From Nitrosopumilus sp. b3 (GTDB taxonomy: Archaea > Thermoproteota > Nitrososphaeria > Nitrososphaerales > Nitrosopumilaceae): a stretch of DNA of 64,000 nt. The translations under genes were made by a program, and so were the position numbers. Positions 22,188 to 35,627 of this stretch are shown here, in pieces. Within the stretch, counting starts at the first letter, position 1; each line of letters begins with the position of its first letter. The DNA lies in NCBI RefSeq assembly GCF_014078525.1, contig NZ_MU078694.1, forward strand, positions 186,001 to 250,000. The letters run 5' to 3'. The notes under the pieces are model-generated. The model saw only the letters and a program-made list of their open reading frames with translations, searched no databases and was not told the origin of the DNA.

Positions 22188-22994
22188 TTATTTTTTTAGA
22201 ATGGTATTCTTTTTTAGATTTTTTGTAAAAGATGCAATCTTTGATTCTAATTTGTTTTGAGGTGTTTTCTCTATCAATTGTAGATATGCGCTGCCAACAA
22301 TTACTGCATCTGCCCCTGCACTGATGTATTTTTTTACGTCCTCCGGTGTTGAAACCCCGAATCCTACTCCTATGGGGATTCTTCCCTTTGTTTGTTTTTT
22401 GACATCCTTTATTGCTTTTAATGTATAATTTTTAATTCCTGTCTTGATTCCTGTGGTGCCAAATACTGCTACTAGATACAAAAATCCTGTTGAAACTTTG
22501 GAGATCTTTTCTATTCTTTTCTTTGAGGTATTTGGAGAGATTAAAAATATTGTATCTGCATTATTTTTTGCAGCATCGATATACTCTTTTGATTCCTCAA
22601 CTGACATATCTGGAAGGATGAATCCATCAATTCCTGCATTTTTTGCATCTTTGATAAATTTTGAGTATCCTTTGTGATACAAAATATTCGTATATGTCAT
22701 TAATACTAGTGGAATGTCTGTCTCTTTTCTGATTTTTTTAACTAGGGAAAAAAACTTGTTAATCTTTGTTCCTTTGTCTAATGATATGGTACTTGCATTC
22801 TGAATTACGGGGCCATCAGCTAATGGGTCTGAAAATGGAAATCCTAACTCAATAATATCCACACCACCTTTGACTAGGCCTCTAACAGTTGAAATCGTGG
22901 CCTTTTCATTTGGAAATCCTGCCATAATGTATGAAATCATGGCTTTTTGATTTTTCCTCTCTAACTCTGCAAATTTTTCTTTAATCTTTGACAT
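22188..22994 (-). CDS. trpA: Tryptophan synthase alpha subunit
   Basis: Cleaves indole-glycerol phosphate to indole. The family motif [17 protein letters not shown] near residue 50 carries the catalytic Glu, and [12 protein letters not shown] near 205 is the phosphate site. 268 residues, normal. The first 14 bp overlap trpB. Last gene of the operon. Confidence 0.96.
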
Positions 22995-24171
22995 TTTTAT
23001 TCAGATAATTTTGTACTTCTTCTACGTCTTTGTCTCCTCTTCCAGAAAGTGTTACTACAATTGATTCTGATTTCTTTCCTTTCCTTGCTACTTTGATTGC
23101 CTCTGCAATTGCATGAGCTGATTCAAGGGCCGGAATGATGCCCTCTGTTCTTGTAAGCATTAGGAATGCATCAATAACTTCAACATCTGTTGCTGAATGA
23201 TATTTCACTCTCTTTGAATCCTTATAGTATGAATGCTCAGGACCAACACCTGGATAGTCTAACCCTGCTGAAATACTGTGTGTTTCAGTAATTTGTCCTT
23301 CGTCATCTTGAAGAAGATATGTCATCATCCCATGTAGAACTCCTTTGGATCCCGCAGAAAGTGTTGCAGAATGCATCTTTGATTTTAATCCTTGACCTGC
23401 AGCCTCTACTCCGATAATTTCTGCATTAGTGTCCACTAGTGGATAAAATGTGCCTATTGCATTAGAGCCTCCTCCAACACACGCAATTACACTATCTGGT
23501 GCTTTGTTGTTTATTTTTTTCATTTGTACTTTGATCTCTTCCCCTATCACACTTTGAAAATCCCTTACCATAACCGGATAAGGATGTGGGCCAACAGCTG
23601 AGCCAAGAAGATAGTATGTCGTCTCTACATTTGTAATCCAATCTCTAATTGCCTCATTAATTGCATCCTTGAGTGTCTTTGAACCTGACTTTACAGGATG
23701 CACCTTTGCCCCAAGTAAATCCATTCTAAAGACATTTAGCTTTTGCCTAATCGTATCTTTGTATCCCATGTAGACTTCGGCTTTCATACCAAGAGCTGCG
23801 CATGCCATTGCTGTTGCAACTCCGTGTTGTCCTGCCCCTGTTTCTGCAATGATTCTTTTTTTGTTCATTTTTTTTGCCAATAATGCTTGTCCCAATGTAT
23901 TGTTGATTTTGTGGGCTCCTCCATGTAGTAGGTCTTCTCGCTTTAGATAGATTTTAGCACCACCTAGTTTCTCTGATAAATTCTTTGCATAGTATAATGG
24001 GGTAGGTCGTCCTGCATACACTTTAAGATAATAGTCTAATTCTTTTTTGAAATTTTTATCATTTTTGAACTTTAGATAGTTCTCTTCTAATTCTTCAATG
24101 GCAGGAACAAGTGTTTCGGGAATGTATTTTCCACCAAACTCTCCAAATCTGCCATTTTTAGGATATTTCAA
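22981..24171 (-). CDS. trpB: Tryptophan synthase beta subunit
   Basis: PLP enzyme that joins indole and serine. [15 protein letters not shown] near residue 85 holds the PLP lysine, and GGGSNAIG near 230 binds the phosphate. 396 residues, the TrpB1 type that pairs with TrpA. Overlaps trpC by 4 bp. Confidence 0.97.
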
Positions 24172-24944
24172 TATGCATTCACCAATTTTTTTACCTGTTC
24201 TTGAATGTTATCGCTTTTCATTATGCTAGAGCCAATCAGAAATGCATCTGCACCAATTTTTCTTAGATAATTGATATCATCTGGAGTCTCAATTCCGCTC
24301 TCTGATAGAATTATTCTTGATTTATCATGCCCTTCTAGTACTCTTTCAGTTGTTTTCAGATCAATTTCCAGTGTATCTAGATTCCTGTTATTGATTCCAA
24401 TGATATCTGCCTCTGTATTTAGGGCATTTTCAAATTCCTCTTTTGTGTGAACCTCCAGTAGAATTTCCAGTCCTTGTTTGTGCCCGTAACTGATAAAATC
24501 ATCAATGTCTTTGAGGAATTTTTGATCAAATAGAGACTGAATTACAAGCATATAGTCCGCCCCTATCTTCTTTGCCGCATCAATCTGAACCTTGTCAATC
24601 ATGATATCTTTCATCAATAGCGGGACATCCACTGTTTGCCTTACCTTCATAAAAAATTCCGGTGACCCATTAAACAGATGTGGCTGTGTCAAAATTGATA
24701 ATGCCTTTGCACCTCCTGCAATCATTTTATTTGCAATGCTTACAGGATCTGATGTTGTCCTAATCTTCCCAAGTGAGGGCGATGCAAATTTTATCTCTGT
24801 TAAAAGTGTCGCATGCTGATTTGTCTTAATTATTTGTACAAAGTCTTTATTTGATTTTTGCAAATCTGCATCAATATCATACGTTCCATCATCTATTGCC
24901 ATTTGTGAATTGTTTACAAGTTTTCTGAGAATATTTTCTGCCAT
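24168..24944 (-). CDS. trpC: Indole-3-glycerol phosphate synthase
   Basis: TIM-barrel enzyme. [15 protein letters not shown] near residue 48 holds the catalytic Lys, then [22 protein letters not shown] and the phosphate-site end [11 protein letters not shown]. 258 residues, a single-domain TrpC not fused to TrpF. One-base overlap with trpD. Confidence 0.96.
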
Positions 24945-25984
24945 TATATCATCTCCTTTAATTTTGAAATATCTCCTGTATCTTTAACAAATTTCTCTAA
25001 TAGTGAAAATGCTTTCCCATCTTTAATTGTGTTTAATGCAATCTCTACTCCTTCCTCAAAATTATCTGCAATGTTTGCAACAATTAATCCTCCTGCAGCA
25101 TTAAGTGCTGTTGTCTCAATCATGGCTTGATTTGCAGTATTATTTAGAACTCCTACAAATGATTTTAATGCATCACCTCTAGTTTTAATTTGAATATCTT
25201 TCAGTTTTGATTTATGCAGTCCTATCACTTCAGGATCAATTGCATTCATCAGCACTTTGTCATCCCTCAAAATGCATACGCGATTTACTGCACTTGTGGA
25301 AAATTCATCCATCCCATCATCTGAGCGTACTGTCATAATGTTTTCAGCACCTTTTCTTTTTAGAATTACAGGTAATCTATCAAGAAACTCTGTTGAAAAA
25401 ACTCCTACGAGTTGATTTTTTACTCCAGCCGGATTTGAGAGTGGACCTAGCAAATTAAATGCGGTTCTTTTTCCTAACTGTTTTCTTGCATTTGAGACAT
25501 GTTTCATTGCAGGGTGAAATTTTTGTGCAAACATAAAGCAGATGTTATGCTTTAGCAAAATCTCTGAAATTTGTGCAGGCTCTAGACTCAAATCATACCC
25601 AAAATACTCAAAAATATCTGCACTGCCTGAAACTCCTGAACTTGAACGATTCCCATGCTTTGCAACAATTCCACCTGCAGCTGCTACTACAAATGACGCT
25701 GTAGTTGAGACATTGAATGTTTGAAGCTTGTCTCCTCCAGTTCCGCACATATCAATAATGGTTCCTTTGTTTTTTGTATCTACTTTGAGTGAGTACTCTT
25801 GCATTTTGTCTAACATAGCTAATAACTCATCATCAGTCTCTCCTTTTTGTGCAAGATTTGATAGAAAGTCCATGTTCTGCTCATCATTTGTTTTTCCTGA
25901 TAGTATTTCCGTCATGATTGTGTTCATTTCCTCATAATTCAGATCTGTCTTTTGCTGCAGTTTTGCTATAATCTCTGAGATCAT
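24944..25984 (-). CDS. trpD: Anthranilate phosphoribosyltransferase
   Basis: Transfers phosphoribose to anthranilate. The PRPP loop is DMCGTGGDKLQTFNVST near residue 85, followed by KHGNRSSSGVSGSAD; NARKQLGKRTAFNLLGPLSNP near 165 is also typical. 346 residues, normal. Overlaps the unknown upstream gene by 4 bp. Confidence 0.96.
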   Translation of the reverse strand: MISEIIAKLQQKTDLNYEEMNTIMTEILSGKTNDEQNMDFLSNLAQKGETDDELLAMLDKMQEYSLKVDTKNKGTIIDMCGTGGDKLQTFNVSTTASFVVAAAGGIVAKHGNRSSSGVSGSADIFEYFGYDLSLEPAQISEILLKHNICFMFAQKFHPAMKHVSNARKQLGKRTAFNLLGPLSNPAGVKNQLVGVFSTEFLDRLPVILKRKGAENIMTVRSDDGMDEFSTSAVNRVCILRDDKVLMNAIDPEVIGLHKSKLKDIQIKTRGDALKSFVGVLNNTANQAMIETTALNAAGGLIVANIADNFEEGVEIALNTIKDGKAFSLLEKFVKDTGDISKLKEMI

Positions 25985-26508
25985 TTCCTTTCTCCTGATT
26001 TTGGCTTTCTCTTTATTTCTTCAATAACTGTATCTAAGAAATCTTGTGTGTCTTTGGGAATATTTTCAAACTCTTTTTCTGAAAAGCTTTCATAAAATAC
26101 CCAGTCATCAAACTTTTTCATATAATTTTCAAAATCAAATGGGATGTTGTTTTCTTTGGAGGAGTCCTCTATTCCCTTTCCAACAGAATAAACAAAGATC
26201 AAAGCTTCTTTAGGATTTTCTTTTAGATATTCACCGACAGTGTAAGGCTTTGGATTATCAGAAATTACCCTTTTGTATAGAATTGTTTTTTCAATATTTT
26301 GCATTGTAGACTCTATTGTAAATGTCAAAAAATTATCTAGTCCCTCAACCTCTTTTTTTAATTCAAATGAATCTAACTTTGTATTTTTTTTAACGCACTG
26401 CTCTACTAGCATATGAATAAAATCATCTGGGATGTTTTCATCTGAATAGTATTTTGTAAATCCATACACTGAAACAAGTTTTTCTCTGTCAGAAAGTAAT
26501 TCTGTCAT
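25981..26508 (-). CDS. Unknown protein encoded within the trp operon (175 aa)
   Basis: Acidic, mostly helical, soluble protein placed between trpG (15-bp gap) and trpD (4-bp overlap). I recognise no domain. It lacks the glycine-rich phosphate loops and the beta-alpha repeat pattern of TrpF, the one pathway enzyme absent from this operon. It could be a regulator or partner of an anthranilate enzyme. Tight packing on both sides argues for co-translation and a pathway-linked role. Confidence 0.8.
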   Translation of the reverse strand: MTELLSDREKLVSVYGFTKYYSDENIPDDFIHMLVEQCVKKNTKLDSFELKKEVEGLDNFLTFTIESTMQNIEKTILYKRVISDNPKPYTVGEYLKENPKEALIFVYSVGKGIEDSSKENNIPFDFENYMKKFDDWVFYESFSEKEFENIPKDTQDFLDTVIEEIKRKPKSGERK

Positions 26509-26523
26509 GATATTCCTCCTGGC

Positions 26524-27129
26524 TCATTTTGAGCCTGACTTTCTCTCCTTTACCTGATTTATGAAATTCTCCAGGATCTTTTTTCCATCCTCAGTCATTA
26601 TGGATTCGGGATGAAATTGGACGCCTTGAATGAGATATTTTTTATGGCTGATTCCCATCACTTCTCCATCATCATTAGCTGTTGCTGTAACTTGTAAAGT
26701 ATCTGGAATTATTGTTTTATCTCCAACTAAACTATGATATCTTGTTGCTCTAAATGGATTCTTTACATTTTGGAATAACTCTGAATTTGTATGCTTTACC
26801 GGACTTGTCTTTCCATGTCGAACACATCCTGCATTAGTTACTTTGCCCCCAAAAGCATGAATAATTCCTTGGTGTCCTAGACATACTCCTAGAATTGGTG
26901 TTGTAGGTCCAATCTCTTTGATTACATCTGAGCAAATTCCAAAATATTTTTTATCCTCAGGAGTTCCAGGCCCTGGAGAAATTATTATTCCATCATAGTT
27001 GTTTTGTTTTATCTGCTCCAAAGTAATTTTGTCGTTTCTAATTACAGTGCTTTCTACTCCCAACTCTCCTAGGTACTGTGCAATATTGTACACAAATGAA
27101 TCATAATTGTCAATAATTAGAAATTTCAT
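26524..27129 (-). CDS. trpG: Anthranilate synthase glutaminase subunit
   Basis: Class I glutamine amidotransferase giving ammonia to TrpE. Nucleophile Cys83 in GVCLGHQGI; His173 and Glu175 in QFHPESIM. 201 residues, single domain. Overlaps trpE by 4 bp. A PabA role in folate synthesis is possible too, but the operon favours TrpG. Confidence 0.95.
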   Translation of the reverse strand: MKFLIIDNYDSFVYNIAQYLGELGVESTVIRNDKITLEQIKQNNYDGIIISPGPGTPEDKKYFGICSDVIKEIGPTTPILGVCLGHQGIIHAFGGKVTNAGCVRHGKTSPVKHTNSELFQNVKNPFRATRYHSLVGDKTIIPDTLQVTATANDDGEVMGISHKKYLIQGVQFHPESIMTEDGKKILENFINQVKERKSGSK

Positions 27130-28556
27130 TTAGATGCCTCCTTTAACGCTTGCAGCATCGCTCCAGCTTTGTGTTCTGTTTCTTTGAATTCATTTTCTGC
27201 AATTGAATCTGAAACAATCCCTGCACCAGATTGGACGAATCCGTCATCATCGTCAATGAATATGCTTCTAATTGCAATTGCAAAATCACAGCAGCCATTG
27301 TATGAGAAATATCCTATAGCACCAGCATATGGTCCTCTGGCTTCTGTCTCTAATTCATCAATAATCTGCATTGCACGAACCTTGGGAGCTCCTGACACTG
27401 TCCCTGCAGGAAAAACTGCCTGAAACGCATCAAACATGTCGTTTTCAGGCGCTAAATTCCCAACTACGTGACTTACAATGTGCTGTACATGACTGAATCG
27501 TTTTATTTGCATTAATGATTCTGGATGAACACTTCCATACTTGCAAACTCTGCCTATATCATTTCTACCTAAATCAACTAGCATGGTATGCTCTGCCAAT
27601 TCTTTTTCATCATGAATCAATTCTTCTGCTAATCGTTTGTTTTCTTCATCATCATCAGTAATTTTTCTTGTTCCTGCTATTGGGAACGTTTCTACTTTAT
27701 CATTTGTAATTCGAACTAACATTTCAGGTGATGCGCCAATTATTGTTTTTGTTCCTTGTTTTAAATGATACATGTATGGTGAAGGATTTAGATTTCGTAA
27801 AGTTTTGTATAGTGTTAAATTGTCTCCTTTATTCTTAAATGCAAATTTCCTAGATAGAACTACCTGAAATATGTCCCCATCATGAATGTATTTTTTTGCC
27901 TTGTTGACAATCTCTGAAAACTTTGCCTTGTCCATATTGGGTGTAACTTCACTTGAATGAAATTCACCAAACGTATCATCATTCATAATTAATTTATCAA
28001 ATCTGTTTTCATCATGATAAAAATAGAATAATTTCTTGTGTACATTATCATAGAGTATACCATCATCATAAATTCCAAACTCCATTAGTGGTTGTTTTGA
28101 GTTGTGTGAATCTGCAATGTCTTCCACTAATCTTATTGCATCATAGTTTACCACCCCTACTGCTCCGCCTAAATAACGATAACTTTGATCATCTGATTTT
28201 CCTAAGAGTTTTTTTAGCTCTGAGAATGGATCCGTAGTCTTAATGGTTTTGGTATTGTCATCTGAAGTTATTTCTACCTTGTCTGAATACCCTTTGAGGA
28301 TAATTTTAGGATCAAATCCCATCACTGATGTTTCAGCTAAAACTTCTGGCCCTGTCAATGACTCAAAGAGAAATGAATGTGAATAGTTTCTTGAAATTTT
28401 ATTGTAAATTTGAAATTGGTTTTCAGATAAATCTAGGGGTATTACTTTTGCTTGAGCATTTCCAAAGGTGTCCACCCATAAACAAAATCTCAGTTCTTTA
28501 TTATTTAAATTGATGAGTGGGTTTTGATGTCGTAATTTTTGTTTAAAATTATTCAT
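27126..28556 (-). CDS. trpE: Anthranilate synthase component I
   Basis: Converts chorismate to anthranilate. The C-terminal chorismate-binding domain has FPIAGTRKITDDDEENKRLAEEL, HTMLVDLGRNDIGRV and FPAGTVSGAPKVRAM. The N-terminal SFLFESLTGPE matches the LLES-type tryptophan feedback site. 476 residues, normal. First gene of the operon; ATG 28556 lies downstream of a TATA and a 6-3-6 dyad at 28577-28591. Confidence 0.96.
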   Translation of the reverse strand: MNNFKQKLRHQNPLINLNNKELRFCLWVDTFGNAQAKVIPLDLSENQFQIYNKISRNYSHSFLFESLTGPEVLAETSVMGFDPKIILKGYSDKVEITSDDNTKTIKTTDPFSELKKLLGKSDDQSYRYLGGAVGVVNYDAIRLVEDIADSHNSKQPLMEFGIYDDGILYDNVHKKLFYFYHDENRFDKLIMNDDTFGEFHSSEVTPNMDKAKFSEIVNKAKKYIHDGDIFQVVLSRKFAFKNKGDNLTLYKTLRNLNPSPYMYHLKQGTKTIIGASPEMLVRITNDKVETFPIAGTRKITDDDEENKRLAEELIHDEKELAEHTMLVDLGRNDIGRVCKYGSVHPESLMQIKRFSHVQHIVSHVVGNLAPENDMFDAFQAVFPAGTVSGAPKVRAMQIIDELETEARGPYAGAIGYFSYNGCCDFAIAIRSIFIDDDDGFVQSGAGIVSDSIAENEFKETEHKAGAMLQALKEASK

Positions 28557-28576: not shown

Positions 28577-28620
28577 ACCGTATGGTACGGTACCTTTATA
28601 TCATATTTGATCGTATCAAA
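28577..28620. promoter_or_regulatory. Divergent trpE / zinc-protein promoter with two 6-3-6 dyads
   Basis: A TATA-like core around 28593-28602 (reads TTTATATC on plus, GATATAAA on minus) can serve both directions. On the trpE side lies ACCGTA-TGG-TACGGT (28577-28591). On the other side lies TTTGAT-CGT-ATCAAA (28606-28620). Each perfect dyad falls between the TATA and the expected transcription start of its gene, the position of a repressor site. Confidence 0.6.
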
Positions 28621-28626
28621 ATTACC

Positions 28627-28809
28627 ATGCAGGGGGTAAATCAGACTATGATGCAAAATGTGCAAAGTCTATCAAAATCACAAACATCTGTCTCTAAAAT
28701 AGAGTGTTATGTATGTGGTAAGGGATTAGAAGATGGTCATTGCATTACTGCCAAGACGTTGCCTAATGGAACAGTTCTATTTTGTGATGTTCACTATTCT
28801 TTACAGTAG
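28627..28809 (+). CDS. Small zinc-binding protein divergent from trpE (60 aa)
   Basis: I start it at ATG 28627, about 30 bp after the TATA core; an earlier in-frame ATG at 28582 lies before the TATA. A Gln/Ser-rich N-terminus is followed by IECYVCGKGLEDGHC and LFCDVHYS, giving Cys and His zinc ligands. It could be a regulator of the trp operon by position, but nothing in the sequence proves this. Confidence 0.65.
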   Translation: MQGVNQTMMQNVQSLSKSQTSVSKIECYVCGKGLEDGHCITAKTLPNGTVLFCDVHYSLQ

Positions 28810-28848: not shown

Positions 28849-29151
28849 TTAATCAACACTTTTTTTGGAAACCATATTTCCAAATGTTATCAATATCTTA
28901 CATGATTCGTGGTATCTTGTATCGATGATCATATTACAATTTGTGCAACTGCGCAAGGATGGTCTTCTACAAAAGATGCATACCGATATTGGAACAAGCG
29001 CTCCATCACACCTGTTGCAAGCATAAAAAATGCTCTTTGAGAGAATAACGTCATCCTTTGAATTTATGGACTGGTACTGAGAAATGTTGGGGATGGGTTT
29101 CTCATCCCTGTAACGATTTTTGATAACACTTGTTTCTCTCAAAGAACGCAT
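28849..29151 (-). CDS. Double zinc-ribbon protein (100 aa)
   Basis: The C-terminal half carries YACNRCDGALVP, VCIFCRRPSLRSCTNCN and a later HESCK: seven Cys and a His, enough for two zinc sites. The N-terminal half is polar. TATA-like CATATAACAA lies about 25 bp before ATG 29151, and one copy of the shared TGTGGC motif (29195-29206) lies 44 bp upstream of the start. Confidence 0.65.
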   Translation of the reverse strand: MRSLRETSVIKNRYRDEKPIPNISQYQSINSKDDVILSKSIFYACNRCDGALVPISVCIFCRRPSLRSCTNCNMIIDTRYHESCKILITFGNMVSKKSVD

Positions 29152-29194: not shown

Positions 29195-29206
29195 TTGTGG
29201 CATGCC
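29195..29206 (+). promoter_or_regulatory. Shared motif copy 1: TTGTGGCATGCC
   Basis: Upstream of the double zinc-ribbon gene (minus) and just beyond its TATA. Identical over 12 bp to the copy at 33201-33212 (opposite strand), and related to the two TGTGGCGTGCC copies at 29839 and 29957. Confidence 0.5.
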
Positions 29207-29245
29207 ATATACTATATAACATTGGTTTCCGATATTGGAATGGTA

Positions 29246-29809
29246 TCATTGGAATGTTTTTCTGACTTTGAGTGATTTTTCCTTTCCACTATCCCAAGAT
29301 AATTTTATTGAATCAACATTTCCCGATGAAATTTCTGTCCAAAAGTCAGCGCATTGTTTTGATAATAGTTTTTTTGGCAATACGATTAAAGATTTTTCAG
29401 AATTTGATTGGAACAATATTTTATTTTTTGATTTTTCCTCATCATTGCAAACATGATATTTTAAAAGATGGTATTTTTCCCCAATTGCCTTGTTATATGT
29501 CAGTTCAAACGACATGTTATTGTTTTGAGAAACTTTGATGATTGATGGATTAAAGTAAAGTTCAGAATTTGAATCTTTGAATAATTGTATGCAACTATCT
29601 ACAATTCTGTTATTTTTGTACCTCTCTTTGTACATAACTTCTCCAAGTTTGATATAGTTGGACAGATGATTTTTGCATCTAATTTCAGTAATGGTGGGCT
29701 TTTCCCCAAATGCTTCAGCCAAAAGATTTGGCATGATGATAGATGAAATTAACATTAATCCTAAAACAATGCCTTTACCCTTCAAACAAGCCAACCCAAA
29801 AACCTGCAA
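29246..29809 (-). CDS. Secreted or membrane-anchored protein, unknown (up to 187 aa)
   Basis: N-terminal hydrophobic stretch (IVLGLMLISSIIMPNLLAEAFG) is a likely signal peptide with cleavage after AEAFG. The mature part has four Cys (RCKNH, DSCIQ, HVCNDE, KQCADFW), which may form disulfides outside the cell, and a basic C-terminus. The start is uncertain: TTG 29809, or a TTG 15 bases later that fits the TATA (29817-29827) better. It is preceded by motif copy 2. Confidence 0.6.
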   Translation of the reverse strand: MQVFGLACLKGKGIVLGLMLISSIIMPNLLAEAFGEKPTITEIRCKNHLSNYIKLGEVMYKERYKNNRIVDSCIQLFKDSNSELYFNPSIIKVSQNNNMSFELTYNKAIGEKYHLLKYHVCNDEEKSKNKILFQSNSEKSLIVLPKKLLSKQCADFWTEISSGNVDSIKLSWDSGKEKSLKVRKTFQ

Positions 29810-29838
29810 AATTATTGTTATTTATCCAAAGATTTTGG

Positions 29839-29852
29839 ACTGTGGCGTGCCT
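29839..29852 (+). promoter_or_regulatory. Shared motif copy 2: ACTGTGGCGTGCCT
   Basis: Lies 12 bp upstream of the TATA of the minus-strand secreted-protein gene. The same 14 bases recur at 29957-29970, 118 bp away in the same orientation. The rest of 29810-30031 holds no gene I can support. Confidence 0.55.
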
Positions 29853-29956
29853 AGATCCACCAGTTTGGTAATCATACTTGGATGCGGCCCTAATTTGAAC
29901 TATTTATTTTTCCATGTATTAGTAAAGTCAAAAATCTATTTGTCTATAGCGGAATT

Positions 29957-29970
29957 ACTGTGGCGTGCCT
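29957..29970 (+). promoter_or_regulatory. Shared motif copy 3: ACTGTGGCGTGCCT
   Basis: Exact repeat of 29839-29852, placed about 62 bp before the histidine kinase start (30032) and about 25 bp before its likely TATA region (29994-30006). It suits an activator site. Confidence 0.55.
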
Positions 29971-30031
29971 TTTTTTGAATAAATTAGTGATGTTTAAATT
30001 AATATCAAATTGATCCTGGCTAGTTAATCTC

Positions 30032-31900
30032 TTGAAAATCTCCTTGCTAATAATTGCAGTAATGTTTGCAATATCGCTTACTTTCACAATAACGGGAATG
30101 GTTTCATTTGATTTAACAGTACAGGAAAGCAAGGAATTGTTGGGTTCAAGAAATGAAGGATTTGCATTTAATCTAATTCAAAATTTAGACAGACACATAG
30201 AAAACAGGCTAATAGATTTTCAGGAATTAACAAAGACTGAATTAATTCGAACCACTCTGACTGAATCAAATAAAGAATTTGAAAGAATTGAAAATATCAA
30301 AGCATACTTGCAACTAAAGGAGCAAGAAATAGAGTTTACGGAAAATAATCCTTTCATTGGAGGCATTTCCGATGTCGCATTGACAAGAGATCTCTTAGAA
30401 ACTATTGAATTCTATCAAGATGAATATGGTTATGAGGTTGTAGAAGAACTATTTGTTACAAATGCATATGGGGCAAATGTTGCACTAGCAACTGGGACAT
30501 CAGATTACTCTCAAAGTGATGAAGAATGGTGGCAGCAAACAAAAGAGACAGGAAAATATGTCGGGGAAATTAAGTTTGATGAAAACTATCAAAATTATTC
30601 CATAGAATTTGCATACAGTATATTTGATGATGATGAAAATTTCATTGGAATTTTAAAACTTTTAGTGACACTTGATGTATTGCTAAATGATTTTGTTCAA
30701 GAAACTGATCTTCTCACAATTTCTGGCAGGGATGTTTTGCTATTAAATAATGACGGCACACAAATTTTTGCAAATCAAGAAATCTCATTGAATAACTCTC
30801 CTGTGTTCTTTTTCCCAACCATACAAAAGGGAAATGATGTTGGATTTTTTGAATTAGATGACGAGATAGATGACTTTCGTTTGATCTCTTATGCACAATC
30901 AACTGGGTATAGAACTTTTGAGGGATTTGGCTGGTTTGTTGTAATTGAGCAAAACAGCTCATCAATTGTAAATGAATTTGTAGGATTACGCAATTCCATA
31001 ATTGGCGTATCAATTTTAGGCATGATTGCATCAATTATTGGTGGATTTTTAATATCAAGCAATGTCTCCTCTCCTTTAAAGCAACTGGCAATTATTGCTG
31101 ACTCTATTTCAAAAGGTGATTTTAAAATTAAAACCAAATCTTCGAAAATTGATGAAATCAACACCATTGGAAAATCATTTGATGACATGGCAAAAAATTT
31201 ACAAAAATTAATTAAAACTGAAAAAGAGTTGGCCGAAGCAAATGTCCGAATAAAAAATGAGAGACTGGCAGCAATTGGAGAAGTTTCAGCAAGTATGGCC
31301 CATAACATAAAAAACCCGTTGGCAACTGTTAAAAGTTCAGCTGAAATTTTACAAAAAAACTCCGAGCATGATGATGAATTAAATGGTGTCATTGAACGAA
31401 TGAACCGCTCAATTGATACTATATCGCATCAAATTAATGATGTCCTAAACTATGTGCGAGTTACTCCATTAGATGTAAAATTAATCTCAATCACTGAATT
31501 GATGCAATCTGCAAAAAATTCTATTGAGATTCCTGAAAATATTTCATTTGAGATTTCGCAATCAGATCTTAAAATAAACGCTGATGTTGAAAAATTAGAG
31601 ATTGTTTTAATCAACATATTCTTAAATGCAATTCAGGCTATAGGAAAAGATCCTGGCAGTATATCCTGTACTGTCGAACAAAAAAATTCAACTGCTATTA
31701 TTAAAATTCAAAATTCTGGACCTGATATTCCTGAAGATGTCTTGTCTCACATATTTCAGCCTCTTGTTACCTCAAAGCAAAAGGGAACTGGTTTGGGTTT
31801 ATCCACATGTAAAAACATCATTGAGCAGCATAAGGGTACTATTACTGTTCAAAACAATCCAACCTGCTTTATCATTACACTTCCCTTATCCTCGAATTAA
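30032..31900 (+). CDS. Membrane sensor histidine kinase (dCache-HAMP-HisKA-HATPase)
   Basis: TM1 is at residues about 4-25 and TM2 at about 320-342. Between them lies a roughly 290-residue extracellular sensor that looks like a double Cache domain. HAMP follows (342-395). The phospho-acceptor is His424 in MAHNIKNPL; the ATPase domain has NIFLNAIQAI and GTGLGLS. Start TTG 30032. The response regulator lies 53 bp downstream on the same strand, so they form a two-component pair. The ligand is probably a small organic molecule, as usual for Cache sensors. Confidence 0.92.
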   Translation: MKISLLIIAVMFAISLTFTITGMVSFDLTVQESKELLGSRNEGFAFNLIQNLDRHIENRLIDFQELTKTELIRTTLTESNKEFERIENIKAYLQLKEQEIEFTENNPFIGGISDVALTRDLLETIEFYQDEYGYEVVEELFVTNAYGANVALATGTSDYSQSDEEWWQQTKETGKYVGEIKFDENYQNYSIEFAYSIFDDDENFIGILKLLVTLDVLLNDFVQETDLLTISGRDVLLLNNDGTQIFANQEISLNNSPVFFFPTIQKGNDVGFFELDDEIDDFRLISYAQSTGYRTFEGFGWFVVIEQNSSSIVNEFVGLRNSIIGVSILGMIASIIGGFLISSNVSSPLKQLAIIADSISKGDFKIKTKSSKIDEINTIGKSFDDMAKNLQKLIKTEKELAEANVRIKNERLAAIGEVSASMAHNIKNPLATVKSSAEILQKNSEHDDELNGVIERMNRSIDTISHQINDVLNYVRVTPLDVKLISITELMQSAKNSIEIPENISFEISQSDLKINADVEKLEIVLINIFLNAIQAIGKDPGSISCTVEQKNSTAIIKIQNSGPDIPEDVLSHIFQPLVTSKQKGTGLGLSTCKNIIEQHKGTITVQNNPTCFIITLPLSSN

Positions 31901-31953
31901 TCTATGAATGATTTTTCCGAAAGTTTTATCATGCTGATTTTTAAGTCTGATAT

Positions 31954-32319
31954 GTGTCTCAGAAAAAAACCATACTGCTTGTAGATGATGATATTGATCT
32001 GTTAGAAAATACATCCTACATGGTAAAGAGTATGGGGTATGATGTCGTCACGGCTGAAGATGGTCTTGATGCAGTATCAAAATACAAAGACATTTCTCCA
32101 AACTTGACTATTATGGACATAAAGATGCCTAAAATGGATGGTTTTGATGCATTTTTTAAAATAAAACAGTTTGATTCTAATGCAAACGTTGTATTAATCA
32201 CTGCCTTTTCTATGGATGAAAAAAAACACTTGAAGGCAAAAAGCATGTCTCTACTGGGAACAATCCATAAGCCATATTCGTTTGAGCAGCTTGAAGAAAT
32301 TGTTCTCAAATATACATAA
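31954..32319 (+). CDS. Response regulator, stand-alone receiver domain
   Basis: CheY-like receiver: acidic pocket DDD at 11-13, phospho-acceptor Asp55 in IMDIKMPKMDG, Thr83 in ITAFS and Lys106 in HKPYS. 121 residues with no output domain, so it must act through a partner protein. Start GTG 31954. It follows the histidine kinase directly. Confidence 0.93.
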   Translation: MSQKKTILLVDDDIDLLENTSYMVKSMGYDVVTAEDGLDAVSKYKDISPNLTIMDIKMPKMDGFDAFFKIKQFDSNANVVLITAFSMDEKKHLKAKSMSLLGTIHKPYSFEQLEEIVLKYT

Positions 32320-32341
32320 TTAATGGACTCTATTTTTAGCA

Positions 32342-33205
32342 TTAGACTTTTTCTAATTTTTTTAATCTGCTAAATCTGGTATTATAGAATTTAATGGCTT
32401 CATTGACAAACTCGTAATACCATTTTGCTATGTTTTTATCTTCCTGAATAATTTTCTTCCATTGCTTTATCTCCAGTGATGAATGCTTTGATGATGCTCT
32501 AAATCTAGCAGGTACAAGCAAATTAGTGTAAAACCAAAATGATATTTGGTTTGCCAAGTCCTCTTCATCTATCTGTTCAAAATTATTTTGATATTTTACA
32601 TTCAAGTATGTCATTAATTCATAAACAGGAAAATTTGAAATCTTTGCAATTTGGATATTGTCCATAAATAACCCTGCAGCCAAATTCTTTAGTCTGTAAA
32701 CCTCGTTACCTATGTTTGATTTTAGATATTCCCATTTACCAAAAACCATTGGAAGAACATCTGAATATTTTTCAGCAATTTTATCAATTTGCTTGTCTGT
32801 CAAATCTAAAACATCTAAACAATATAAAATTCCGTGTAGAGATAATCTGTATTGATCTGCCGGTGCCTTGACATGACTCTTTCCGTCTTTTACTACTAAA
32901 CCTGATTCTAATAATCCGATTGTGTGTTTTCCTCTTGCCATTCTTCCAAGAAGAAGTCTCCTGTATTCTTTTTCCTTTGTTCTGATTCCACTTGAATCAT
33001 CCAGATGTGTTTTTGCTATCCCCCATGTTGTAAGTGTGCCATTTAGTCCAAGTATTTCTAACATTCTTTGTACATTTTCATGATGCTTTGTGCCCTGCTT
33101 TTTTCTAAAAGAGTAAGCTCCAAACAATCTTTGGGCCGTAGGTCTAGTGTACATTTTGTATGCATGTAGATTGCCATAGATTGTTCCCTGTTCATTAGAA
33201 GGCAT
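32342..33205 (-). CDS. Conserved hypothetical protein (287 aa) next to the two-component pair
   Basis: Soluble, helical protein. The N-terminal half has a possible winged-helix region (LNGTLTTWGIAKTHLDDSSG, GLLESGLVV); the C-terminal half is helical with many Lys and Tyr. No named family is recognised. It converges on the response regulator with a 22-bp gap, and its ATG lies inside motif copy 4. A role as the DNA-binding output of the receiver is possible but only inferred from position. Confidence 0.7.
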   Translation of the reverse strand: MPSNEQGTIYGNLHAYKMYTRPTAQRLFGAYSFRKKQGTKHHENVQRMLEILGLNGTLTTWGIAKTHLDDSSGIRTKEKEYRRLLLGRMARGKHTIGLLESGLVVKDGKSHVKAPADQYRLSLHGILYCLDVLDLTDKQIDKIAEKYSDVLPMVFGKWEYLKSNIGNEVYRLKNLAAGLFMDNIQIAKISNFPVYELMTYLNVKYQNNFEQIDEEDLANQISFWFYTNLLVPARFRASSKHSSLEIKQWKKIIQEDKNIAKWYYEFVNEAIKFYNTRFSRLKKLEKV

Positions 33206-33212
33206 GCCACAA
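33201..33212 (-). promoter_or_regulatory. Shared motif copy 4: TTGTGGCATGCC
   Basis: On the minus strand; identical to copy 1. It overlaps the ATG of the 287-aa protein and sits between divergent promoters for that gene and the small plus-strand gene at 33258. Confidence 0.5.
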
Positions 33213-33257
33213 GTTGTTGGGCATAGTCAAATAATAACTATTCTCAAATCATTTAAC

Positions 33258-33428
33258 ATGCAAAGTCTAACTTTGAAACCCGGGCAATCTGAGCCTATAA
33301 CAAGTCTGGTAGAAACACCAGTAAAAGAAAGAGAAAAAATTCGACCTGAAATATTGTCCCTGCAAAACACATCTGCAATGGATGTGATGGGATTATCATG
33401 GATATTTGTAGAGGATGACTATAGTTGA
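33258..33428 (+). CDS. Small hypothetical protein (56 aa)
   Basis: ATG 33258 lies about 28 bp after AAATAATAAC, a fitting leaderless promoter; an in-frame ATG at 33204 would overlap the divergent gene's start. Acidic C-terminus WIFVEDDYS. No motif seen. Its TGA overlaps the possible next start (TTGA). Confidence 0.5.
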   Translation: MQSLTLKPGQSEPITSLVETPVKEREKIRPEILSLQNTSAMDVMGLSWIFVEDDYS

Positions 33429-34319: not shown

Positions 34320-35627
34320 GTGGGGCTTTCAAATTCAGTACTTTTGGGATTAAAAATTTTTCAGCCAATTTCTATCACAAATAAGACGTTAGAGTTTTTT
34401 GAATTTTTAAAATATGAAACAAAACCATTTCGAACTGATTCATCCCTTTCAAAAGACATTCTATTTGACGCAATTCCTAAGAGCATCAAAATTAAGCAAA
34501 CTAAAACAACAAAAACCCAAACAAAAAAACTTTTTGAAGAATTCTTAAAGAATCTTGATAAGACACTTATGATTAAAAATTCTGATGATGAAATTTCAGA
34601 AATTAAATGGGATGAAATAGATGATTTTTGTAGTTTACTTCGTTTGATTGAGCGTGGTGATGAAAGAAAAGTTAGATGGGCATTATACAATCAATTTGTA
34701 ACTGGGAATACTAAAATTACAATTGACTCCTTATCAAAACTTCTAAAAGAATTTAAAATTAAAAATTTAAAAAAGATTTTAATTAAAATATTAAAAACTG
34801 AAACACTATCTGGATTAGATGCAGAATTTGATGGAACTGTATTTGCAATAAAACATCAACTTGGCGATAAACTTGTATCTCATTATTTAGCTGATGCCAT
34901 TGAAGAAGCATCAAGACGTTCTCCAGGTGAATTGGAGAAAGAAATTCTTGCATTGATTGATGAGGGATCATATTCTAATCAGGAAATTTCTCAAGCTTTA
35001 ATGATTGATGAAGGTCTTGTATCGAGAATAATTTCTAAATTACGTGATCAGGAAAAAATTGTTTTATCTAGTTTTGGTCAACGTGGAATTAGATACTTTA
35101 CTACAAATTGTGATAATTGTCCATTTGGAACCACAAAATCTTCATGTAGAAAAGAGACATTATCTTTTATCATTTCTGCATTTATGAAAGATTATGGTGT
35201 GGATCTTACAATCAAGGATTTTGATTCAGTAGAATCTAATCAAGCCCTTCTAAAAATTAAGCGAATTATCATGATGGCAAGAAAAGAAAAGAATACAAAA
35301 CTAGAGCGTAATTTAAGCGAGAATCTTGATGGTGTTCTTTCAAAAGTAGTTGACAAATTCATTGACATTGAATTTCCTGATAAAAAAAACCCAAATCTTC
35401 CTGAAATCAACCTCAAAGTACCATCCAATATGGCAAATCTTCCTATATTGTATCAATTAGGATTAAGAAAAGGTGCGCAAGGTGGAATTAGGCTTATGGA
35501 TGAGATGCTTCACTTAGTATCCAAATCAATCAGCAAAGAAGACCGTGTAAAAATAAAAAAACACTCTCTATCAGAAGCTAATAAATTCCTAAAATATCTG
35601 GGAATTGATCCTAAAAATTCTAATTGA
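34320..35627 (+). CDS. Winged-helix protein with Cys cluster, unknown role (435 aa)
   Basis: Residues about 200-255 form a winged helix (EILALIDEGSYSNQEISQALMIDEGLVSRII). Right after it comes TNCDNCPFGTTKSSCRKE, three or four Cys that could bind zinc or an iron-sulfur cluster. The N-terminal 200 residues are Lys-rich and helical. GTG 34320 lies 28 bp after CATAAATA. A redox- or metal-sensing regulator is plausible; no direct family match. Confidence 0.75.
   Translation: MGLSNSVLLGLKIFQPISITNKTLEFFEFLKYETKPFRTDSSLSKDILFDAIPKSIKIKQTKTTKTQTKKLFEEFLKNLDKTLMIKNSDDEISEIKWDEIDDFCSLLRLIERGDERKVRWALYNQFVTGNTKITIDSLSKLLKEFKIKNLKKILIKILKTETLSGLDAEFDGTVFAIKHQLGDKLVSHYLADAIEEASRRSPGELEKEILALIDEGSYSNQEISQALMIDEGLVSRIISKLRDQEKIVLSSFGQRGIRYFTTNCDNCPFGTTKSSCRKETLSFIISAFMKDYGVDLTIKDFDSVESNQALLKIKRIIMMARKEKNTKLERNLSENLDGVLSKVVDKFIDIEFPDKKNPNLPEINLKVPSNMANLPILYQLGLRKGAQGGIRLMDEMLHLVSKSISKEDRVKIKKHSLSEANKFLKYLGIDPKNSN

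Follow-up and report, generated by a model that had tools for sequence, protein, structure and literature searches.

A conserved promoter element in Nitrosopumilus and its probable link to a histidine kinase, a receiver-only response regulator and a candidate winged-helix regulator

In the accessible portion of a published survey, DNA-binding response regulators are described as rare in archaea and stand-alone receivers as making up about 75% of thaumarchaeal response regulators, while most receiver-only genes lie outside any conserved neighbourhood, which is why their functions could not be inferred (PMC5847659). Two arrangements covered by the same portion come closest to the one described here. 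The FilI/FilR1/FilR2 system of Methanosaeta harundinacea likewise brings together an archaeal kinase, a winged-helix regulator and, as FilR2, a stand-alone receiver, and some thaumarchaeal receiver-only genes adjoin divergent genes for ArsR-type helix-turn-helix proteins (arCOG03067) (PMC5847659). The present locus lies in a 64,000-nt stretch of the Nitrosopumilus sp. b3 genome (GCF_014078525.1, NZ_MU078694.1, positions 186,001 to 250,000 of the forward strand; hereafter the window), where four copies of the 11-bp motif TGTGGCRTGCC surround genes for a membrane histidine kinase (HK), a receiver-only response regulator (RR) and a 287-aa protein with a predicted winged helix (P287). FilR1 has its own receiver domain, whereas P287 has none attached; the arCOG03067 pairs are divergent, whereas RR and P287 are mostly convergent on opposite strands and P287 belongs to no Pfam family (PMC5847659, as far as available). 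Unlike in the Fil system, a promoter element and its regulon are identified here, and unlike in the arCOG03067 pairs, sites and targets are defined. We consider it probable that the motif copies are operators of one regulon, conserved in Nitrosopumilus and its relatives and run from the kinase through the receiver to P287. Since the DNA-binding output domain that defines the canonical class was tested for in RR and is absent, the system is filed as variant two-component signalling with a separate DNA-binding partner, and not in the canonical class of DNA-binding response regulators. No published description of the motif, the triplet or the P287 family was found in the open-licence literature. 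Ammonia-oxidising archaea are important in nitrogen cycling, and a conserved triplet of kinase, receiver and candidate DNA binder with a defined operator and targets in these organisms means that three proteins and short probes would suffice for a direct test of how an archaeal receiver reaches DNA.

An exact pattern search places the motif at 29196–29206, 29841–29851 and 29959–29969 on the (+) strand and at 33201–33211 on the (-) strand, and the window contains no exact copy besides these four. This agrees with the count in the earlier note, and the longer words given there, the 14-bp ACTGTGGCGTGCCT at 29839 and 29957 and TTGTGGCATGCC at 29195 and 33201, are also found at those positions. With one mismatch allowed, the window holds five matches against 0.66 expected (at least five were reached in 0/100 shuffles), the fifth being the copy at 29196 read in reverse and overlapping it. 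Words of 11 bp do recur in genomes, and a chance cluster of a short word might be suspected on that ground, but it is extremely improbable, as 0.018 exact copies are expected in the window (first-order Markov) against the four present (P for at least four, about 4e-9) and both motif and geometry are conserved in other genomes. Only one extra exact copy exists in the whole 1.79-Mb genome (nine contigs), at C2:414710; it was rejected as a regulon site, its flanks reading as coding by eye and its context recurring in genome G032, and it is not among the matches of the promoter model described below at E<=10. Exact copies in G009, G024, G022, G031, G032 and others were set aside in the same way, their flanks reading as coding. 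In this genome the word in its functional orientation, GGCAYGCCACA, has 17 matches with one mismatch, versus 1 for a reversed-pattern control. Exact core matches also occur near contig ends (about 50–600 bp) in G019, G021, G030 and G031, and those that were read look like coding or GC-rich DNA with no TATA-like box.

The functional orientation is that of the reverse strand, on which the element reads GGCA(T/C)(G/A)CC(A/G)CA. The opposite orientation, adopted in the earlier note, and the idea that the motif forms the first codons (ATGCC) of leaderless transcripts were both rejected, because elsewhere the core precedes a TATA-like box on the other strand. Across this genome and its relatives, a TATA-like CAWATAAT occupies positions 27–34 counted from the first G of the core, the core lying some 17 bp upstream of it, and the start codon comes 54–57 nt after the same G, a geometry that suggests leaderless transcription of the target genes. 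A partial dyad, ATRCC-N11-GnYAT, is present in the operator; information content is low outside the core, half-site, TATA-like box and start codon, and the columns of the promoter model end ahead of the start codon. Rigid spacing to the box and the start codon would also be expected of a core-promoter element, that is, an extended upstream element recognised by one particular TFB or TBP pair instead of a regulator tied to signalling. The B recognition element (BRE), however, lies nearer the TATA box than the about 17 bp seen here, few genes carry the core, and the core tracks the P287-kinase-receiver cassette, all of which makes this explanation improbable.

The same architecture recurs at other loci and in other genomes. 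A sequence-only promoter model (R1), built from 13 training sites in G013, G018, G036 and G003 with none from this genome, was used to search 60 genomes of the genus, a strong match being defined as E<1e-3. Its top seven matches here comprise all four sites of the window plus three with GGCATACCACA on contig C5 (E 1.5e-8 to 0.009); they are followed at ranks 8 and 9 by sites with GGCATACCGCA, no more than 7 kb from a second P287 gene on contig C4. The same geometry precedes orthologous genes in other genomes. A local regulon bound by one factor had been proposed, and the single factor is upheld by the fixed spacing, the orthologous recurrence and the one co-occurring protein family, whereas the C5 and C4 sites rule against a purely local feature. 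As judged from these comparisons, the sites are well supported as elements of one real, conserved regulon. The genome search for the motif did not find it at random positions or as part of a dispersed repeat. A dispersed repeat or mobile-element end would account for the inversion of the outer copies and for the position of some relatives' copies near contig ends, but is very improbable: non-orthologous sites have unrelated flanks once the core and TATA-like box are set aside, relatives with P287 have most of their sites at a fixed distance from the start of an open reading frame (ORF), and longer shared flanks, terminal repeats and target-site duplications are absent. The inverted outer copies were accordingly rejected as transposon ends, given the unrelated flanks and the coding or GC-rich nature of the contig-end cases. 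The region C4:303000-333000 (G000, partly L192) contains a second kinase-receiver-P287 cassette, GGCATACCGCA/GTA sites, a SEC120-like gene and more Cys-rich small ORFs, and this cluster appears to be a paralogous regulon in the same cell.

HK (30032–31900, (+) strand) is a 622-aa membrane histidine kinase with a dCache-like extracellular sensor and Pfam matches to HAMP, HisKA (3e-12) and HATPase_c (5e-21). In an AlphaFold2 (AF2) model of its first 345 residues (mean confidence score, pLDDT, 84.0), a predicted extracellular double-CACHE fold is flanked by long, putatively membrane-spanning helices, and a Foldseek search with the sensor retrieved the dCache domains of Tlp3 (E 2e-11), HK1S, DctB and Mlp24. 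The predicted fold therefore points to sensing of a small extracellular ligand. RR (31954–32319, (+) strand) starts with GTG and is 121 aa long; Response_reg, covering residues 7–117, is its only Pfam match, and no DNA-binding output domain was found. Since RR is receiver-only, it is not an obvious DNA binder, and P287 is the better candidate.

P287 (32342–33205, (-) strand) has a predicted MarR/PadR-like winged helix at about residues 27–135 and a helical C-terminal part, and its AF2 model scores a pLDDT of 84.9 and a predicted TM-score (pTM) of 0.86. The winged helix superposes on E. coli MarR (3vod) with Z 10.6 and a root-mean-square deviation of 1.8 over 77 residues (VIA-align), and structural re-alignment of Foldseek candidates gave only winged-helix-type regulators (MarR, PadR, RosR or ArsR type), judged by title, among the 50 matches shown. 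Regulators of the MarR, PadR and RosR types, on which the predicted winged helix superposes with Z 9–10.6, act via promoter-proximal sites and are often self-regulating; P287 differs from them in having no sequence-family match, an extra C-terminal helical half of about 150 residues, and a linked kinase and receiver. No MarR-type sequence model was matched at E<=1 in Pfam (four P287 homologs) or at E<=0.1 in NCBIfam (window P287), and the P287 sequence has no Pfam or NCBIfam family or credible relative in the PDB, the receptor matches there (E 0.07–0.29) looking like chance. A winged-helix fold by itself does not show function, and on the model P287 is a probable DNA-binding effector. Linkage to both signalling proteins is seen at 61 of the 65 distinct P287 loci, where a receiver gene lies no further than 600 bp and a kinase gene no further than 2.5 kb from P287, the exceptions being L204 and L261 (receiver not detected), L229 (cut by a contig end) and the tandem second copy in L230. 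The receiver is on the strand opposite P287 at 53/65 loci, mostly in convergent orientation. Homologs occur in Nitrosopumilus, Nitrosarchaeum, Nitrosotenuis and Cenarchaeum records; the records covered include Nitrosopumilus sp. b1 and Nitrosotenuis chungbukensis MY2. In a group of about 40–45% identical P287 proteins (L258, L259 and L260) the P287 start reads TGCGGTATGG, and the divergent gene there codes for a 49-aa protein that looks like a ribbon-helix-helix regulator.

The distribution of P287 links it to the operator. Strong promoter matches were found in 10 of the 60 genomes, and all ten have a P287 homolog; the matches occur in 7/7 genomes whose P287 is 84% or more identical, compared with 3/53 others (p 3e-7), and when the four training genomes are left out the figures are 4/4 and 2/52 (p 4e-5). 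With a permissive pattern, 45 of the 56 loci that offer enough upstream sequence have the operator core overlapping the start codon of P287. The residue that follows RRLLxGRx in P287 is A or S at all 15 loci where base 8 of this operator is A, and D or E at all 32 where it is G, with D accompanying T at one locus and nine loci unscored. The present genome has both classes: the window combines P287-A with A8 sites, and C4 combines P287-B with G8 sites. We are fairly confident that P287 is the operator binder. The regulon could also be genuine but bound by another protein, such as a winged-helix factor encoded elsewhere, or by the receiver together with some other partner, P287 being only a co-regulated target; the operator at P287's own gene is what a target would have, and the core also occurs in genomes with no detected P287, such as G019. 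This is unlikely in view of the P287 homologs in all ten genomes with strong matches, the co-variation of P287 with the operator base, and a predicted fold of DNA-binding type.

Several observations weigh against P287 as binder or against the strength of the regulon evidence. The co-variation of residue and base, seen at 47 of 48 scorable loci, is a single change and not independent evidence, since the A8 group forms one clade on the tree (100/96). Part of the core at the P287 start is under coding constraint, because CAT/ATG belongs to it, and the core is missing there at 11/56 loci; a divergent ORF at the canonical distance is found in only 28/56. The core alone also turns up in genomes that lack strong promoter matches, such as G079 and G019, the latter with no P287 homolog found; core-only matches compared with control number 9 versus 2 in G019, 6 versus 3 in G030 and 6 versus 5 in G079. 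Foldseek alone returned no match to P287 at E<=0.001 (best E 0.049), and the superposition with MarR leaves the C-terminal helical part outside its 77 residues. The fetched loci, 1.31 Mb in all, yielded 116 core-only matches. Of these, 52 are followed at 53–57 nt by an ATG that begins an ORF of 40 aa or more, and 5-nt bins outside 50–59 nt hold 1–6 matches each; the loci were fetched for holding model matches, exact motifs or P287, which biases the counts upward, and sites in related genomes are partly homologous and not independent, so the 52 describe a conserved architecture and are not 52 independent trials. A further 51 of the 116 are not promoter-like.

Under the favoured reading, HK would sense an extracellular ligand through its dCache domain and phosphorylate RR, which, having no output domain, would act through protein contact on P287. 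We lean towards such a contact between receiver and P287. P287 would bind GGCATRCCRCA and the weaker half-site (GnYAT) directly before the TATA box, and from this position, about -54 to -31 relative to the start codon, would control, and most likely activate, promoters of leaderless mRNAs for tiny, zinc-ribbon and secreted proteins. Since the operator covers its own start codon, and also its probable transcription start, P287 would be expected to repress itself. For the combination of target activation and self-repression the chances appear evenly balanced.

Site 1 of the window (29196–29206, functional orientation on the (-) strand; R1 E 3.4e-7) has the core GGCATGCCACA about 17 bp upstream of the TATA-like TCATATAAC and precedes the gene for Zn100 (28849–29151, (-) strand), a 100-aa Cys-rich zinc-ribbon-like protein whose ATG at 29151 starts at +55. 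Zn100 has no Pfam or NCBIfam family; its relatives in G075, G013, G003, G083, G018 and several of L215-L226 likewise have the site 54–60 nt upstream, and the ratio of nonsynonymous to synonymous substitution rates (dN/dS) is 0.06–0.12 (3 pairs). Site 2 (29841–29851, (-) strand; E 0.009), with the core GGCACGCCACA and the TATA-like GATAAATAAC, lies before the gene for a predicted secreted protein, SEC187 (29246–29794, (-) strand). The ORF list starts SEC187 at TTG 29809, and alignment with relatives places the start at 29794 (TTG here, ATG in G075), 57 nt from the site. Site 3 (29959–29969, (-) strand; E 0.0019) repeats GGCACGCCACA between the kinase gene and a divergent small ORF (at 29915), which reads ATG-GAA-AAA-TAA (MEK-stop) both here and in G075 (L175) and is intact in G013, where it codes for 79 aa; in G018 a 76-aa version is kept and the site lies beside the secreted-protein gene of that genome. 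The small ORF thus appears to have decayed in this genome and in G075. This ORF is the canonical target, and the kinase gene, which flanks site 3 opposite to it, lacks the canonical arrangement: it has the site upstream, in opposite sense and at a non-canonical spacing, and may be affected by it. Site 4 (33201–33211, (+) strand; E 1.5e-8), again GGCATGCCACA, overlaps the P287 start codon, the CAT of the core being the ATG of P287 on the (-) strand. It also lies upstream of a divergent ORF for 56 aa, M56 (33258–33428, (+) strand; C-terminus AMDVMGLSWIFVEDDYS), which starts 57 nt after the core and is the canonical-distance target of the site, though absent from the earlier note. The four promoters named in that note were those of the zinc protein, the secreted protein, the kinase and the 287-aa gene; the first two have the canonical geometry, whereas at the kinase it is non-canonical and at the 287-aa gene the site lies over the start codon.

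Beyond the window, most of the ORFs that follow this geometry are tiny (48–81 aa) or specify secreted proteins or zinc-ribbon proteins about 100 aa long. With a wider core pattern, 90 distinct ORFs start at 53–59 nt, a few of which look spurious, e.g., those inside other genes; 60 of the 90 code for 90 aa or fewer, and 39 of these 60 share an acidic-GL[STI][WC] motif, such as DVMGLSWIFVEDD. Several of the tiny proteins have a common upstream LV..PVKERE-like segment followed by a differing C-terminal part (GLSWIF, MYWMLSKY and zinc-ribbon types), and on a reading of the ORF list they appear to be modular. Substitution patterns show that the small ORFs are coding and under constraint: dN/dS is 0.09–0.72, below 1 in 28/28 ortholog and paralog pairs, for the 56-aa family, 0.12–0.32 (15 pairs) for the 52–55-aa family beside P287-B and 0.51 for a 51-aa pair, the range over all pairs compared being 0.06–0.72. 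The target proteins tested have no Pfam family (weak, unrelated matches only at E<=1) and no NCBIfam model. The regulon gives dozens of tiny coding genes a context of co-regulation. Two loci, L220 (5099-, 11291+) and L223 (1469-, 3402-), hold tiny proteins that pair the same N-terminal segment with either a GLSW-type end or a CxxC...CxxCG zinc-ribbon-like end, which suggests that modules have been exchanged among them.

Very small proteins under two-component control are known from the PhoQ/PhoP system, where MgrB is a membrane inhibitor of its kinase (PMC8404706, in the part available); in the archaeal small proteins no signal peptide was noticed on reading them. In the accessible parts of work on pseudo-symmetric bidirectional promoters of prokaryotes, one symmetric core may serve two diverging genes (PMC12825309, PMC10268837), and a similar arrangement may exist between P287 and M56. 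An AT box, CAAATAAT within CAAATAATAAC (33228–33235), is placed such that it could form the TATA element for both P287 (-) and M56 (+). Unlike in those promoters, an operator flanks just one side here, and direction could thereby be open to regulation; the placement of CAAATAATAAC for both genes suggests a possible direction switch at 33201–33258. More tentatively, these features could be joined in a reading that we regard as possible but doubtful, in which P287 turns transcription at a two-way AT box from itself to the tiny protein, within tiny-protein phosphosignalling present in two copies. The pseudo-symmetric AT box would seat the archaeal initiation complex either way, and P287, switched by the phosphorylated receiver, would occupy the side over its own start; the modular tiny proteins would feed back on the signal or distribute it, and two parallel, operator-insulated copies (A8 and G8) would operate in one cell. 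If true, three proteins would make up an archaeal phosphosignalling system with an output consisting mainly of a family of modular tiny proteins.

The regulon cluster is adjoined by tryptophan-biosynthesis genes, as read from their ORFs (trpA, trpB, trpC, trpD, trpG and trpE; 22188–28556, (-) strand), with a 175-aa ORF between trpD and trpG and no operator copies among them. A small Cys/His-containing ORF (28582–28809, (+) strand), which ends in CYVCGKGLEDGHCITAKTLPNGTVLFCDVHYSLQ, adjoins the zinc-protein gene and has no operator. On the far side of P287, a gene at 34320–35627 (+) specifies a 435-aa protein with weak helix-turn-helix-type NCBIfam matches (best 1.9e-4, below the cut-off), and homologs of this protein are found near the cluster in G075, G013 and G018.

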